This document shows, piece by piece, positions 53,319 to 63,669 of a DNA stretch of 64,000 bases. The stretch covers positions 62,001-126,000 of the forward strand of contig NZ_RAQH01000008.1 in NCBI RefSeq assembly GCF_003610695.1, written 5' to 3'. The stretch comes from Epilithonimonas arachidiradicis (lineage in GTDB: Bacteria; Bacteroidota; Bacteroidia; Flavobacteriales; Weeksellaceae). A program made the position numbers and the translations under genes. The notes under the pieces were generated by a model, which ran no database searches, was not told where the DNA came from, and saw only the letters and a program-made list of their open reading frames with translations. The first letter of the stretch is position 1; each line of letters opens with the position of its first letter.

Positions 53319-53906
53319 TTGAAAGAACAAAATCTTTACATAATTTCGGGTTGTAATGGTGCTGGAAAAACTACTGCATCTTTTACAATTCTGCCCGAAA
53401 TATTAGATTGTAAAGAATTTGTAAATGCTGATGAAATTGCAAAAGGTCTTTCGCCTTTTCAACCAGAAAAAGTAGCTCTTGAATCTGGCAGAATTATGCT
53501 TAATCGTATTGATGAGTTATTTTCACAAAATGAAAACTTTGCTTTTGAAACAACCTTGGCAACCAAAATCTACAAACAGAAAATTATAAAGGCAAAGGAA
53601 CAAGGTTATAACACAACACTTCTTTTCTTTTGGTTAAAAAATCCTGAACTAGCGATTGAACGTGTGAAAATTAGAGTTAAGGAGGGTGGACATTATATTC
53701 CTGAAGATGTAATTAAGAGAAGATATTACAATGGAATTTTCAATTTATTCAATATTTATCTTTCAATTGTAAACCAGACTTTGATTTTTGACAATTCTGA
53801 AGGAAAACACATTCTCATTGCTGAAAAGAATTCAGAGACAGAAATCAATATTTATAATCAAGAAAAATTTAACGAGTTAAAGAGCTATTATGACAACAGA
53901 AAATAA
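53319..53906 (+). CDS. Zeta-toxin-like P-loop kinase (COG4185-type ATPase)
   Basis: A 195-aa P-loop protein. Walker A is GCNGAGKTT with K17; ADEIAKGLSP with D38/E39 follows at the position of the zeta-toxin catalytic acid; FAFETTLATKIY (about 75-86) and RVKEGGHYIPEDVIKRRYYNGIFNLF (about 125-150) are typical of the group annotated as zeta toxin or predicted ABC-type ATPase. Zeta toxins phosphorylate UDP-N-acetylglucosamine; this subgroup's substrate is not established. Start is TTG at 53319. Its last codons overlap a 48-aa ORF by 17 bp, a likely cognate partner. Confidence 0.82.
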   Translation: MKEQNLYIISGCNGAGKTTASFTILPEILDCKEFVNADEIAKGLSPFQPEKVALESGRIMLNRIDELFSQNENFAFETTLATKIYKQKIIKAKEQGYNTTLLFFWLKNPELAIERVKIRVKEGGHYIPEDVIKRRYYNGIFNLFNIYLSIVNQTLIFDNSEGKHILIAEKNSETEINIYNQEKFNELKSYYDNRK

Positions 53907-54694: not shown

Positions 54695-55663
54695 ATGAAA
54701 CGTTTTCCTATTCTGGTAACATCTATAATCGTATTAGCGATTATTACGTTTTTCATCAACCTTAATATTGGTTTTGCAAAACTGAATTTTTCAGACTTTA
54801 TAAATTCAGAATCTGAGAATTTTCAGATTGCAGGATTCAGGATTAATCGTGCTTTGGCAATGCTTTTGGCTGGAATTGCGATCCCAACTAGCGGGTTTCT
54901 CTTGCAGGAATATTTCAAAAATCCTTTGGCTGGTCCTGATGTTTTGGGAATCACGTCGGTTTCCAGTTTGTTTGTCGCGTTTTACATTTTCTTTTCACAA
55001 AACATTGTTATTCCTGATTTTTTACAGAACAGTTTTATCAGTTTATCATCTATCATTGGAAGTATTGTTTTGATGATGATTTTACTTTTATTTTCGAATC
55101 GATTTCGGGATAAAAGTTTCATCATTATTTTTGGATTTTTGATTTCGGCTTTGGCTGGCGCTGTTGTTTCGTTTCTTCAGTTTTATGTGGAAAGTCAAAG
55201 TCTGAAAAATTATATTTTATGGACTTTTGGAGCAAATAATCAGGCTAGTTTAATTCAAATTTCAATTCTTACGGTTTTAATAATTATTGGATTAATTTTT
55301 ACTTTCAAATCTATAAAACCGTTAATAGGCAATGCTCTAGGAAATGCTTACGCACAGAGTTTCGGAATCAATCAATCCAAGCTAAAAATCAGTATTATTG
55401 TAGCTTCTTCCCTACTTTCTGCTTCGGTTACGGCTTTTTTAGGACCGATTTTATTTATTGGCGTGGTGGTGCCACATGTTTGCAGAATGATTTGGAATCC
55501 CGCGCAACTCTGGCATCAATGGATTTTGAATATGATTCTGGGTATTTTCATTATGCAGGTTTTCTCAATTATATCAGAATTGAGTCAGTTTCCGATTAAT
55601 ATCATCACGACATTCTTTGGAATTCCTGTGATATTATTGATGTTGATGAAAAGTAATAAATAG
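54695..55663 (+). CDS. FecCD/BtuC-type ABC transporter permease
   Basis: ATG 54695 used (an in-frame TTG lies 3 bp earlier); 322 aa with 9-10 hydrophobic helices. Signatures: ALAMLLAGIAIPTSGFLLQEYFKNPLAGPDVLGITS near the N-terminus, and FLGPILFIGVVVPHVCRMIWNP for the cytoplasmic coupling loop. Family transports iron-siderophore, heme or cobalamin across the inner membrane. The cognate ATPase is split off by the inserted GxxExxY element; its TAG stop directly abuts the left inverted repeat at 55664. No substrate-binding protein gene is visible. Confidence 0.9.
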   Translation: MKRFPILVTSIIVLAIITFFINLNIGFAKLNFSDFINSESENFQIAGFRINRALAMLLAGIAIPTSGFLLQEYFKNPLAGPDVLGITSVSSLFVAFYIFFSQNIVIPDFLQNSFISLSSIIGSIVLMMILLLFSNRFRDKSFIIIFGFLISALAGAVVSFLQFYVESQSLKNYILWTFGANNQASLIQISILTVLIIIGLIFTFKSIKPLIGNALGNAYAQSFGINQSKLKISIIVASSLLSASVTAFLGPILFIGVVVPHVCRMIWNPAQLWHQWILNMILGIFIMQVFSIISELSQFPINIITTFFGIPVILLMLMKSNK

Positions 55664-55736
55664 TTTTTATCGCAAAGTCGCAAAAAATTGATTTTTAAAA
55701 CTGATGAAAGACGCAAAGTTTTTTATCTTCGATAAA
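55664..55736 (+). repeat. Left inverted repeat of the GxxExxY cassette
   Basis: Starts TTTTTATCGCAAAG (55664-55677) and ends TTATCTTCGATAAA (55723-55736); a GACGCAAAG at 55710-55718 echoes the outer unit. Mate: 56125-56198. Confidence 0.8.
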
Positions 55737-55744
55737 AAAATACA

Positions 55745-56122
55745 ATGGATGAAAATGAATTGGCAAAAATTGTCGTTGATTTAGGATTTAAAATTTACAA
55801 AAAACTTGGTGCAGGTTTATTTGAAAACGTTTATGAGGAATGTCTTTTTCATGATATTAAAAAATTTGGATTAAAAGTCGAAAAGCAAAAATCATTACCT
55901 ATAATTTATGATGATTTGATAATTGAGAATGCTTTTAAAATTGATTTATTAGTAGAAGATAAATTAATTTTAGAAATAAAAACTGTCGATTATCTGAATG
56001 ATATTCACAAAGCGCAAATTCTAACTTACCTAAAAATGACGAATTGTAAATTAGGATTATTATTAAATTTCAGAACAGATTATTATAAAAACGGAATAAA
56101 AAGAGTTGTAAACAATCTTTAG
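55745..56122 (+). CDS. GxxExxY family protein
   Basis: A 125-aa protein with the defining motif GLFENVY (G24, E27, Y30) and a PD-(D/E)XK-like core: D67 in AFKIDLLVEDKLILEIKTVDYL with E77 and K79, then KAQILTYLKMTNCKLGLLLNF. The family resembles nucleases/Holliday-junction resolvases, but biochemical activity is not established to my knowledge. It sits alone between two inverted repeats inside an ABC transporter operon. Its orientation follows the operon. Base composition is more AT-rich than the neighbouring reading frames by eye. Confidence 0.88.
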   Translation: MDENELAKIVVDLGFKIYKKLGAGLFENVYEECLFHDIKKFGLKVEKQKSLPIIYDDLIIENAFKIDLLVEDKLILEIKTVDYLNDIHKAQILTYLKMTNCKLGLLLNFRTDYYKNGIKRVVNNL

Positions 56123-56124
56123 AA

Positions 56125-56198
56125 TTTATCGAAGATAAGCCCTGGCGACTTTTAAACAGAATAATAGTAAAAAAACTTTTGTGCCTTTGCGATAAAAA
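56125..56198 (-). repeat. Right inverted repeat of the GxxExxY cassette
   Basis: TTTATCGAAGATAA (56125-56138) and CTTTGCGATAAAAA (56185-56198) are exact reverse complements of the left-arm inner and outer units, in mirrored order. The arm ends on the base before the ATPase start codon. Confidence 0.8.
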
Positions 56199-57146
56199 AT
56201 GAAACATTTCCTAGAATTAAAAAACACAACAATCGGCTATTCAAACCCTTTGGTTTCGGAGATTAATTCGTCATTGGAATTAGGCGAAGTTTTTCTGTTA
56301 ATGGGAAACAACGGAATTGGAAAAACCACCTTAATCAAATCTATTCTTGGACAAAATAAACTATTGAAAGGCGAAATTTCTATCAATGGGAAATCAATTC
56401 AAAAACTGAATTCAAATGAAATAGCTTCTCAAATTGCCATTGTTTTTTCTAAAGCTGAAATTCCTGATAATTATACGGTTACAGATTTAATTTCGTTAGG
56501 GAAATACATTCATTATCCTTATTATTTTAAATTGAATGAAACAGATAAACAAGAAATTTCCGAAATTATCAACAAACTCAATCTATCAAAATATCAGAAT
56601 AAAAAACTAACCGAATTATCTGACGGCAATCTTCAAAAAGCCTTTATAGGAAGAGCCTTAGCTCAGAATTCTCCTTTCATTATTTTGGATGAACCGACAA
56701 CTCATTTGGATGAAGAAAACAAATTAATGATTCTTTCTCTTCTCAGAAATCTTGCTAAATCAGAAAATAAGTTAATTCTTTTCTCTTCACACGATTGGCG
56801 ATTGGCAAAAGAATTTTCTGATAAAATATGGTGGATTAAAGATAAAAAACTCATCAGCGGAATCTCTGAAGAAGTGATTCTCAACAATCCTGAATTGATT
56901 ACACCAAAGATTCTGAATTTTAATCAAACCTTCCATTCTCCTGAAATTGATGCGCCGAAATTGGAAAAAGAAATGATGTTCTCTTATCTCCAAAAAAACT
57001 TCTCTCAAGATTTACGAAAATTTAAATTGACGTTTAAAAATGATTTTTGGGAACTGAATTTGGATAATTTTTATGACAATTGTCATAATTTTCAAGAAAT
57101 TAAACATTCTCTCCAAACTCTTATTAAAACAGGCAATTCTAACTAA
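56199..57146 (+). CDS. FecE-like ABC transporter ATP-binding protein with C-terminal extension
   Basis: A 315-aa ATPase partnering the FecCD permease. Walker A GNNGIGKTTLIKSIL (about 36-50), Walker B FIILDEPTTHLDEENK, switch His in FSSHDWRLAKEF. The signature is LSDGNLQKAFIGRAL, where LSGGQ would be usual. About 60 residues after the normal end (from ILNFNQTFHSPEID) are an extra, Lys/Phe-rich region. Start ATG follows the right inverted repeat without a spacer, so it has lost any original upstream ribosome-binding sequence shared with the permease gene. Confidence 0.9.
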   Translation: MKHFLELKNTTIGYSNPLVSEINSSLELGEVFLLMGNNGIGKTTLIKSILGQNKLLKGEISINGKSIQKLNSNEIASQIAIVFSKAEIPDNYTVTDLISLGKYIHYPYYFKLNETDKQEISEIINKLNLSKYQNKKLTELSDGNLQKAFIGRALAQNSPFIILDEPTTHLDEENKLMILSLLRNLAKSENKLILFSSHDWRLAKEFSDKIWWIKDKKLISGISEEVILNNPELITPKILNFNQTFHSPEIDAPKLEKEMMFSYLQKNFSQDLRKFKLTFKNDFWELNLDNFYDNCHNFQEIKHSLQTLIKTGNSN

Positions 57147-61438: not shown

Positions 61439-61448
61439 ACACGGAGAA

Positions 61449-61468
61449 TAAAGAATAAAGAGAAAAGA
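61449..61468 (+). repeat. Left 20-bp inverted repeat of the four-helix-bundle cassette
   Basis: TAAAGAATAAAGAGAAAAGA, purine-rich, with internal AATAAAGA periodicity; exact mate at 61843-61862. Confidence 0.85.
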
Positions 61469-61477
61469 CTTTTCATA

Positions 61478-61834
61478 ATGAAGCATAATTTTAAGAATCT
61501 AAATATTTGGAAATTATCTATAGAATTAGCTGATGAAATTTATGCAATCACTGAAAGTTTTCCTAAAAATGAAGAATTCGGTTTGAAATCACAAATCAGA
61601 AGGTGTACAGTCTCTGTTGCTTCTAATATTGCAGAAGGTTCAAGCAGAACTTCACAAAAGGACTTCAATCGATTTTTAGAAATCAGTTTAGGTTCTCTTT
61701 ATGAATTACAAACTCAAATAATTATTTCCTCAAAGAGAAATTATATTGAACAATCGAAATTTGAATTAATTGAAAATAAAATCACCGAATTACAGAGAAT
61801 GATTTCTGGCTTTCAAAAAACACTGAGTTTGTAA
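61478..61834 (+). CDS. Four-helix-bundle protein (23S rRNA intervening-sequence type)
   Basis: A 118-aa protein of the family first found encoded in intervening sequences of 23S rRNA genes. Landmarks: FKNLNIWKLSIELADEIYAITESFPKNEEFGLKSQIRRCTVSVASNIAEGSSRTSQKDFNRFLEISLGSLYELQTQ, where SVASNIAEGSSR and the following SLGSLYELQTQ are the family signatures. Four amphipathic helices are expected. The family has no established biochemical role. It is placed inside the fad operon, between inverted repeats and in the same direction as the operon. Confidence 0.93.
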   Translation: MKHNFKNLNIWKLSIELADEIYAITESFPKNEEFGLKSQIRRCTVSVASNIAEGSSRTSQKDFNRFLEISLGSLYELQTQIIISSKRNYIEQSKFELIENKITELQRMISGFQKTLSL

Positions 61835-61842
61835 GTCTTTAT

Positions 61843-61862
61843 TCTTTTCTCTTTATTCTTTA
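61843..61862 (-). repeat. Right 20-bp inverted repeat of the four-helix-bundle cassette
   Basis: Exact reverse complement of 61449-61468; it ends 19 bp before the fadE start codon. Confidence 0.85.
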
Positions 61863-61881
61863 ATCTAAAAAAATAAATAAT

Positions 61882-63669
61882 ATGTCAACAGATACTAAAA
61901 CATTAGACGGCGGCGAGTTTCTAGTAAAAGAAATCACTGCAAACGAAATATTTTCTATCGAAGAATTGTCCGAAGAACAAAAGATGCTTCGTGATTCTGC
62001 AAAAGAATTCATAGATAAAGAAGTCGTTCCGAATAAGGAAAGATTCGAGAAAAAAGATTATGCTTACACGGAAGAAGTAATGCGTAAAATCGGTGAAATG
62101 GGATTCTTGGGAATCGCTGTTCCTGAAGCTTACGGCGGTTTGGGAATGGGATTCGTAACGACAATGCTGGCTTGCGATTACATCTCTGGAACGACTGGTT
62201 CATTAGCAACTGCTTATGGTGCGCACACAGGAATTGGAACGCTTCCTATCTTACTTTACGGAACTGAAGAACAAAAGCAAAAATATCTTCCGGATTTGGC
62301 TGCTGGAACTAAATTCGGAGCGTATTGTTTAACCGAGCCGGATGCAGGTTCTGATGCCAACAGCGGAAAAACAAGAGCAAAACTTTCGGAAGACGGAAAA
62401 CATTACATCATCAACGGACAAAAAATGTGGATTTCCAATGCAGGATTTGCTGATACCTTCACTTTGTTTGCGAAAATCGATGACGACAAAAACATCACTG
62501 GATTTGTAATCAACCGTTCTGAATTGGAAAATCCGGAAAGTCTGACTTTCGGAGAGGAAGAACACAAATTGGGAATCCGTGCGTCTTCTACGCGTCAGGT
62601 TTTCTTCAATGATATGAAAATTCCTGTTGAAAATCTTTTAGGAGAAAGAAATAATGGTTTCAAAATCGCACTTAATGCACTTAACGTTGGTCGTATCAAA
62701 TTGGCTGCAGCTTGTCTGGATGCACAAAGAAGAATTCTTAATTATTCATTGACTTATTCTACAGAGAGAAAACAATTTGGTGTTTCTATCAATACATTTG
62801 GAGCGATTCGTAAGAAGTTGGCGGAAATGGCAACTGGCGCTTTCGTGAGTGAAGCTGGTTCTTACAGAGCTGCGAAAAATGTAGAAGACAAAATCGAAGA
62901 ATTGGTTGCCGGCGGAATGAACCACGAGCAGGCAGAACTGAAAGGTGTGGAAGAATTTGCAGTTGAATGTTCTATCCTGAAAGTTTTTGTATCAGATTTG
63001 GCGCAACATACAGCCGATGAAGGTATCCAAATCTTTGGCGGAATGGGATTCTCCGAAGATACACCAATGGAAGCGGCCTGGAGAGATTCAAGGATTTCCA
63101 GAATCTACGAAGGAACCAACGAAATCAACAGACTTTTGGCTGTTGGGATGTTAATCAAACGGGCAATGCAAGGCAAAATCGATTTGTTAACACCTGCGAA
63201 AAACGTCGCTAAAGAATTGATGAGCATTCCGTCTTTTGACATTCCTGATTATTCGGAATATATGTCTGAGGAAAAAGAAGTGATTAAGAACTTGAAGAAA
63301 GTATTCTTAATGGTTTCCGGTTCTGCGCTTCAAAAATATATGATGGACATCGAGAAACAACAGCATTTGTTATTAAACGCTTCCGAAATTCTGAACCAAA
63401 TCTATATGGCAGAATCCGCCATCCTGAGAGCTGAGAAACATTTCTCAACAGATTCTGTGGAAGCGGCAATGGCAAGGCTGAACCTTTACAAAGCGGTTGA
63501 AATCATCACAACCAACGCCAAAGAAGGTATAGTTTCTTTCTCAGAAGGCGACGAACAAAGAATGATGTTAGCAGGACTGAGACGTTTCACAAAATATGTA
63601 AATACTCCTAATCCAATTGCTTTAACAGAACAAATTGCCACTCATTTTATTGAGAAAGGTTTTTATTAA
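61882..63669 (+). CDS. fadE: Acyl-CoA dehydrogenase FadE
   Basis: A 595-aa FAD enzyme making the 2,3-double bond in acyl-CoA. The acyl-CoA dehydrogenase core is about 30-430: FGAYCLTEPDAGSDANSGKTRA (FAD/substrate), MWISNAGFADTFTLFAKI, RKQFGVSINTFGAIRKKLAEMA, LAQHTADEGIQIFGGMGFSEDTPMEAAWRDSRISRIYEGTNEINRLL. The catalytic Glu is probably the one in YEGTNEI. About 160 extra C-terminal residues resemble the long form of Bacillus FadE (594 aa) and related VLCAD-like enzymes. Last gene before a strong terminator. Confidence 0.95.
   Translation: MSTDTKTLDGGEFLVKEITANEIFSIEELSEEQKMLRDSAKEFIDKEVVPNKERFEKKDYAYTEEVMRKIGEMGFLGIAVPEAYGGLGMGFVTTMLACDYISGTTGSLATAYGAHTGIGTLPILLYGTEEQKQKYLPDLAAGTKFGAYCLTEPDAGSDANSGKTRAKLSEDGKHYIINGQKMWISNAGFADTFTLFAKIDDDKNITGFVINRSELENPESLTFGEEEHKLGIRASSTRQVFFNDMKIPVENLLGERNNGFKIALNALNVGRIKLAAACLDAQRRILNYSLTYSTERKQFGVSINTFGAIRKKLAEMATGAFVSEAGSYRAAKNVEDKIEELVAGGMNHEQAELKGVEEFAVECSILKVFVSDLAQHTADEGIQIFGGMGFSEDTPMEAAWRDSRISRIYEGTNEINRLLAVGMLIKRAMQGKIDLLTPAKNVAKELMSIPSFDIPDYSEYMSEEKEVIKNLKKVFLMVSGSALQKYMMDIEKQQHLLLNASEILNQIYMAESAILRAEKHFSTDSVEAAMARLNLYKAVEIITTNAKEGIVSFSEGDEQRMMLAGLRRFTKYVNTPNPIALTEQIATHFIEKGFY

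Follow-up and report, generated by a model that had tools for sequence, protein, structure and literature searches.

The described systems closest to the one analyzed in this work are the hairpin-forming doublets of repetitive extragenic palindromic (REP) sequences, known as REPINs, and the REP-associated tyrosine transposases (RAYTs). According to the excerpt available from PMC8049555, RAYTs are vertically inherited, and more REPINs are found in the E. coli genomes that hold a RAYT gene. Another likeness is offered by the TIRYT and TIRtron elements, which, in the excerpt available from PMC3733652, contain a single gene between long terminal inverted repeats (TIRs) that also form a repeat family. 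We examined a stretch of 64,000 nucleotides of Epilithonimonas arachidiradicis (the window, which is part of contig C8; genome of 3.65 Mb in 15 contigs, 99.95% complete), in which a GxxExxY gene flanked by inverted arms occupies positions 55664–56198, between the genes for an ABC permease and an ABC ATPase. The best explanation for this element is that it belongs to a family of short palindromic repeats, of which it is the member that carries a gene. We assign a probability of roughly 0.57 to the reading that this pairing resembles that of REPINs and RAYTs, with a Cas4-like nuclease in place of the HUH transposase, and that the GxxExxY protein amplifies the gene-less copies in trans; mobilization by this protein is something that we infer from the matching of arms with protein lineages and from copy numbers.

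The element is a 535-bp palindrome with the GxxExxY gene at its center, and it fills the whole gap between the permease and ATPase genes. Local alignment of the left arm (55664–55736, + strand, 73 nucleotides (nt)) with the right arm (56125–56198, − strand, 74 nt) gave 54 identical columns out of 76 and a score of 28.5. None of 3000 dinucleotide shuffles of the arms reached this value (mean 10.3, standard deviation 1.9, maximum 20.0), and the highest score among 655 sliding control pairs of equal spacing within the window was 16.0. The imperfect inverted repeats around one GxxExxY gene that had been proposed from the letters of the sequence (the original prediction) are therefore real, and the exact 14-bp blocks that it described in the arms, the outer TTTTTATCGCAAAG and the second TTATCTTCGATAAA, are present. 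The outer motifs TTTTTATCGCAAAGTCGCAAAA (55664–55685, +) and TTTTGTGCCTTTGCGATAAAAA (56177–56198, −) form an inverted pair with 91% identity (I1), and the block at the inner end of the left arm (55723–55736, +) pairs at 100% with TTTATCGAAGATAA (56125–56138, −) at the inner end of the right arm (I4). An inner motif repeat of the left arm, AAGACGCAAAG (55708–55718, +), was matched by eye to the inner hairpin arm of the gene-less copies described below. As had also been claimed, the permease stop codon TAG (55661–55663) lies directly before the left arm and the ATPase start codon ATG (56199) directly after the right one. Between the arms, the GxxExxY gene (55745–56122, +, 125 amino acids (aa), recognized with the TIGR04256 and PF13366 profiles) is the sole open reading frame (ORF) of at least 70 aa; hence, no transposase lies inside the element, in agreement with the prediction.

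The genome was searched for the outer motif TTATCGCAAAGNCGCAAA, allowing up to 2 mismatches and using the reversed pattern as a control. The motif was found at 26 places, two of which belong to the window element, versus 0 for the control. Sixteen of these places pair (partner with at most 5 mismatches) into 12 gene-less palindromes of 106–128 bp, so that the search for other arm copies proposed with the prediction was productive. The partner of L041 and that of L051 has 6 mismatches, a value close to chance, and both places are nevertheless in the alignment of gene-less copies; the remaining six lack a partner of this kind, and among them L055 is, by eye, inside a coding sequence and is probably a chance match. 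The 14 aligned copies share one plan: outer motif, 25–30 nt, inner AAGTCGCAAAG ... CTTTGCGACTT, 25–30 nt, and the outer motif again. The window element follows this plan around a central gene, and the outer CGCAAAGNCGCAAA and inner AAGNCGCAAAG motifs of its arms also build the gene-less copies across the chromosome. In all four cases where two outer motifs lie less than 300 bp apart, the pair is inverted. A covariance model derived from the 14 copies, in which a palindrome can count on both strands, gave 1–51 matches in 22 of the 23 genomes of the genus (the window genome included; 0 in G013) and a single match in one of 16 other genomes. The arms of a second GxxExxY gene resident in the window genome (C6:147234) differ from TTAACCACAAAAGTCACAAAAG by at most 1 mismatch. 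This motif (at most 2 mismatches) occurs at 62 places in the genome (control, 0); every one of the 23 genomes of the genus contains it, whereas 16 others do not, and its pairs within 300 bp are inverted in 16 of 16 cases. Up to 4 kb, the longer inverted pairs of both families in the window genome correspond to the two GxxExxY genes plus one pair spanning two neighboring short copies.

Of the 14 aligned gene-less copies, eight were tested as single-stranded DNA, and all eight folded strongly (z from −3.3 to −5.7). Covariation among the 14 copies was not beyond that of shuffles (82.9% vs. 82.4%), so the arms are conserved as sequence and not by compensating changes. The alternative offered in the original prediction, a long hairpin recognized by the protein, is possible in view of the folding, but the covariation does not speak for it. 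The consensus of the 14 copies has no GTAG at either end. An RNA reading of the repeats was discarded, as RNAalifold found only 7 pairs in the family, covariation was absent and there was no Rfam match above chance: a scan of 55500–56400 up to E 1 returned one snoRNA match (E 0.47, below the gathering score) and no intron match. The element is situated between two open genes, not inside one.

At most of the GxxExxY loci examined, the gene is enclosed by matched inverted arms of its own. In a first collection of 106 loci (a subset of all TIGR04256 places, broken copies included), 104 had enough flank, and in 83 of them the upstream flank matched the reverse-complemented downstream flank with a score of at least 20; the controls gave 17/104 (reversed) and 4/103 (a far stretch). 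Among the ORFs of at least 100 aa with full flanks in the fetched loci, matched inverted arms surround 117 of 164 GxxExxY ORFs, many of which are orthologues and not independent, versus 21 of 480 others. A second collection, formed by the best 80 of 563 confirmed relatives and biased to close ones, was reduced to 76 after dropping four loci with short flanks, and matched inverted arms were present in 44 of them versus 3 in the reversed control. Among 20 loci of this second collection, clear CGCAAAG-style arms were observed in L285, L286 (labelled Deltaproteobacteria), L293 and L298 (labelled Cyanobacteria), and no such arms in L295 (Alphaproteobacteria) or L303 (Chloroflexi). These records come from metagenome-assembled genomes, and a label like Bifidobacterium breve (L270) in the same set looks like mis-binning; a spread of armed GxxExxY genes beyond Bacteroidota is probable, and the taxon labels do not secure it. 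The arms have a tandem step of 9–10 nt in common (z 5.3 and 3.8), as measured on 69 arms from the first collection.

The sequence of the arms goes with the protein lineage rather than with the locus. For 95 full-length genes, an arm matched the opposite arm of its own locus (median 26.5) better than arms of other loci (13.5) or reversed arms (12.5). At different loci, similar arms were detected in 81 of 3294 pairs with protein identity below 50%, and in 37 of 700 (50–60%), 61 of 243 (60–70%), 21 of 43 (70–80%) and 4 of 5 (above 80%) pairs of increasing identity. Within one locus group, none of the 15 pairs below 50% identity had similar arms; these groups rest on shared flanks, and one group can hold two nearby sites. 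In the six intact genes starting with M[ND]ENELAK, the two arms depart from the CGC motif by no more than 4 mismatches. The CCACAAAAG motif, at up to 3 mismatches, is found in both arms of nine genes; eight of them start with MITQ[SA]Y or MMITQSY, and the ninth, L157 (MIEDKGYL), is in the locus group of the other eight. CCACAAAAGTCACAAAAG is the arm of a GxxExxY lineage other than that of the window element.

In the two families tested outside the genus, nearly all copies of a repeat lie in the genome that has the matching gene. G048 contains the CCACAAAAG motif 115 times and carries a gene with precisely these arms; the motif is found 6 times in G046, once in G043 and not at all in 18 others. 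Similarly, CACAGATTNAAANGATTA occurs 55 times in G052, whose gene has those arms; its congener G025 has 3 copies and 20 others have 0–1 (reversed control, 0–2).

The genes flanking the element from outside encode a FecCD-type ABC permease (54695–55663, +; PF01032, E 6e-54) and an ABC ATPase (56199–57146, +; PF00005, E 4e-28). We compared 24 permease–ATPase junctions, that of the window genome included. Five hold the window lineage (in G019, the gene is internally deleted), and six hold a different GxxExxY lineage, 62–69% identical, with CACAAGGACACTAAG-type arms (in G011, the gene has an internal stop). The other 13 have no GxxExxY match: three contain another insert of 326–328 bp, four a different palindrome of about 100 bp, and six are bare, with a gap of −1 to 19 bp. 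Pairs without the insert, which the prediction had suggested looking for, do therefore exist, and in five of the junctions without GxxExxY the gap is 6 bp or less. In the protein tree, the window lineage groups with same-arm proteins from another locus (100/100), and the junction group requires two changes, with 0 of 200 bootstrap trees having one. At a second locus, lineages that are about 32% identical in protein (L132, L162) fill the same junction, and at a third the same place contains gene-less CGC copies in G000, G004, G006 and G016 and CCACAAAAG copies in G008, G011 and G017. Since different lineages or elements were found at three loci, the same junctions have been filled repeatedly, and since different elements occupy the same kind of junction, the exact stop-to-start fit is not unusual. 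As a separate observation, a third palindrome, TTTGTCATTCCGTAGGAATCT...AGATTCCTACGGAATGACAAA or similar, fills the same junctions in other genomes (L072, L076, L317, L375). Upstream of the permease gene, a protein with a zeta-toxin-type kinase domain (PF06414, E 5e-11) is encoded at 53319–53906 (+).

Of the gene-bearing loci, 80 out of 107 fall into 15 groups with shared flanks. Judging from these sequence comparisons, the gene-bearing forms look mostly inherited in place and the gene-less form looks to be the multi-copy one, while the window copy seems to have changed site. The proposal that the element is a minimal mobile cassette was consequently upheld only in part: the gene and its arms act as one unit, but the arms are not private to it, as gene-less palindromes occur genome-wide, and it is these, rather than the mostly inherited gene-bearing forms, that are multi-copy. 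Neither of the two pictures opposed to a cassette, that is, an element fixed at this locus in all relatives or ordinary repeats unlinked to GxxExxY genes, holds cleanly, with 11 of the 24 junctions filled.

The window protein matches TIGR04256 (E 5.2e-39, 133.2 bits; curated cut-off, 35) and PF13366 (E 6.1e-39, 133.4 bits; cut-off, 22). In 49 aligned sequences, G24, E27, Y30, E77 and K79 are invariant, D67 and Q91 are at least 90% conserved, and no cysteine is present among the columns with at least 90% conservation. An AlphaFold2 model was obtained with a predicted local distance difference test (pLDDT) value of 96.6; the structure comparison gave 4ic1 as the best structure for this fold, and the Foldseek list includes I-Bth0305I (3r3p_B, E 0.12). 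A reading of the locus as a defence island was also considered, with a scan confined to two GxxExxY proteins: Cas4-type profiles matched the window protein with E 4.7e-4 and the L118 protein with E 2.8e-5. When solved structures were searched by single sequence no match was found, and by profile the matches were weak, with 4ic1 (E 0.2) ranked after a chance S100 match. From the profile matches and the conserved residues, the window protein, called PD-(D/E)XK-like in the original prediction, is a predicted PD-(D/E)XK nuclease with D67, E77 and K79 as the catalytic residues; Q91–Y95 corresponds to the QxxxY motif of the Cas4/RecB type. TIGR04256 matches are present in 34 of 59 genomes (the window genome included), with up to 8 per genome. 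The window genome also contains a broken GxxExxY copy (C1:99180–99529) in two pieces, one of them with 3 internal stops, and with decayed CGC-like arms. A phage or plasmid origin was discarded, given that matches were found in 0 of 50,697 phage records and 8 of 72,556 plasmid records, and none in IMG/VR with a search sensitive to close relatives only.

In the mechanism that we propose, a small Cas4/RecB-like PD-(D/E)XK protein would recognize the motif, repeated at a 9–10-nt step and as inverted pairs. The protein might then nick or trim the palindromes, most likely while these form hairpins in the single-stranded DNA of the replication fork; their copying into new intergenic places could perhaps be the work of host repair or ligation. 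The gene-less copies would be amplified in trans, as REPINs are by a RAYT, and the gene's own copy would mostly be inherited in place and would change site only occasionally.

Several observations weigh against this reading. PD-(D/E)XK enzymes are not known for strand transfer alone, so that the joining step would need an unnamed partner. No movement of the element or of the repeats was seen in the genomes compared, and the divergence of the gene-less copies (mean column identity 61%, n = 14) indicates that there was no recent burst. Target duplication was not evident in 94 elements, whose left and right flanks are no more alike than mismatched flanks (median 6.0 for both); four of the 94 score at least 10, with 1.2 expected. 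At one site only (L378:17319–17441), a long target duplication of about 23 bp is possible, as the flanks overlap by 23 bp in the empty G007, G013, G018 and G020 and by 21 bp in G002; the overlap is 2–5 bp in G005 and G019. Flank similarity in direct orientation is common (43/104 in the first collection and 24/76 in the second), because the arms hold repeated motifs and sometimes whole palindromes. Arm and lineage are not one-to-one, since G015/L099, of the other junction lineage, has arms 4 and 2 mismatches from the CGC motif. With respect to copy number, G043 has a gene of the CCACAAAAG lineage and yet one match, although its arms are 3 mismatches off and the pattern may miss copies, and the 6 matches of G046 occur without a recognized gene. 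Within the genus, the link between gene and copy number is weaker: genomes with and without the gene have on average 36 and 23 matches (9 and 14 genomes, p 0.023) or, in a second comparison, 39 and 21 (7 and 16 genomes, p 0.019), p-values that ignore shared ancestry and count G019, with its internally deleted gene, as a carrier. Furthermore, G014 has no GxxExxY match yet contains 24 and 36 repeat matches of the two families, and 7–44 matches persist in 12 of the 14 genomes of the genus that lack a CGC-type gene; old copies evidently outlive the gene.

The frequent occurrence of gene-less copies where the matching gene is lacking, and the presence of Y1 transposases in 14 of the 16 genomes tested, would also be expected if another enzyme (an insertion sequence (IS) transposase or a RAYT) moved the palindromes and the GxxExxY gene were a captured passenger. 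We consider this unlikely, since a passenger would not make the arms track the protein lineage, and since in G000, the window genome, the inverted arm pairs (up to 4 kb, at most 2 mismatches) enclose no single longer insert other than GxxExxY, although DDE-type transposases were not searched for. A RAYT was rejected as the mover: PF01797 has 0 matches in G000 and G016, which yet contain 41 and 36 repeat matches, and neither arm type was found within 4 mismatches on either side of the 12 Y1 loci examined, several of which carry different REPs, ending in CGACCTGTTA or CGATCTATTGGT. It is likewise improbable that the nuclease has a host role in which it binds or processes the repeats (hairpin trimming, chromosome maintenance, or a self-guarding pair) and that these spread without it by replication slippage and recombination. 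The conserved locus groups in which the gene mostly resides, its conserved active site and the strong folding of the gene-less copies (8/8, z at most −3.3) fit such a role; however, the copy-number gap of 1–2 orders of magnitude outside the genus needs an amplification that depends on, or arrives with, the gene, and the broken copies and the genus genome without any match suggest that the gene is dispensable.

PD-(D/E)XK homing endonucleases exist, and the repeated filling of the same junctions, together with the Foldseek match to I-Bth0305I, led us to consider a nuclease that cuts empty junctions, into which the element is copied by recombination from a filled allele. We judged this very unlikely, given that homing does not need inverted arms and does not produce dispersed gene-less palindromes at unrelated sites, and that proteins as different as those of L132 and L162 fill one junction. 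It is scarcely credible that the palindromes, which fold well and sit in gene junctions, are operon transcription terminators or RNA structures next to an ordinary host gene: the GxxExxY element is patchy at the junction (11/24, two with a damaged gene), and neither the covariation nor the Rfam scan pointed to a structured RNA.

The preferred reading, amplification of gene-less palindromes by the GxxExxY protein, may be extended to a wider one, which we hold tentatively and lean slightly against. Many lineages of Cas4-like nucleases, each with its own palindrome family and with a common 9–10-nt tandem grammar, would amplify gene-less palindromes in trans without the help of any known class of transposase; this would occur in Bacteroidota and maybe in further phyla, with PF05635 perhaps forming a parallel system. 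In the papers searched, which were open-licence only, no function is given for GxxExxY; the term occurs in PMC8934634 and PMC12085832, on unrelated matters in the excerpts available. Among the matches listed, titles and abstract openings do not link GxxExxY, PDDEXK_3 or PF13366 to repeats, and strings longer than the CGCAAAG 7-mer were not found. No mover is given there for CGCAAAG- or CACAGATT-like dispersed palindromes, which suggests that a mobile repeat system of this kind has not been described in that literature. A repeat family tied to one protein lineage makes both the function of GxxExxY and the origin of the repeats testable. If it is true that the nuclease amplifies the repeats, it would represent a mobilizer of palindromic repeats built on a nuclease fold, not on an HUH or DDE transposase.

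Other genes with their own repeats were also noticed. In the window, a PF05635 gene (four-helix bundle, 23S rRNA-intervening sequence protein; about 61440–61900, profile match 61493–61810, +) is flanked by inverted AGAATAAAGAATAAAGAGAAAAGA-type tandem motifs and, by eye, sits tight between two genes, as a second cassette organized alike. Flanks were available for 28 of the 30 PF05635 loci that were fetched (one was misread as 11 aa), and a score of at least 20 was reached in 10 of the 28 versus 0 in the reversed control. Inverted AGTGTTCAGTTTTTAGTGTTCAG-type tandem motifs surround the small Flavobacterium genes L245:1261–1638, L249:1251–1622 and L250:1255–1632; the last two are PF05635 and L245 looks alike. 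The PF05635 family may run a parallel repeat system in the same genomes. Among the Y1 transposase loci L331–L342 of related genomes, several have their own REP-like hairpins (e.g., GCTCCGTAGGAGCGACCTGTTA), unlike the GxxExxY arms.

Regarding known systems, the GxxExxY protein shares with Cas4/RecB-type nucleases the fold, the catalytic residues, 4ic1 as the best structure and Cas4-type profile matches; it differs from them in its size of only 125 aa, in having no conserved cysteine and in being tied to its own palindromic repeats. As in IS elements with miniature inverted-repeat transposable elements, there are terminal inverted repeats and a gene-bearing form accompanied by short gene-less forms; in contrast, no transposase lies between the arms here, no general target duplication was evident in the 94 elements compared, and the elements have an inner hairpin and the tandem 9–10-nt step. 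The RAYT-like gene of TIRYT and TIRtron elements, according to the excerpt of PMC3733652, encodes a tyrosine transposase of the IS200/IS605 group. The REPIN–RAYT system differs in that the protein here is a PD-(D/E)XK nuclease (PF13366), not a Y1/HUH transposase, in that the repeats described here lack a GTAG tag at their ends, and in that the Y1 genes of related genomes have other repeats. The two systems are alike in their paired inverted short motifs dispersed between genes, in the single protein gene flanked by the same motif, and in a gene that is mostly inherited in place, with a motif that differs by lineage and with more copies in the genomes that have the gene.
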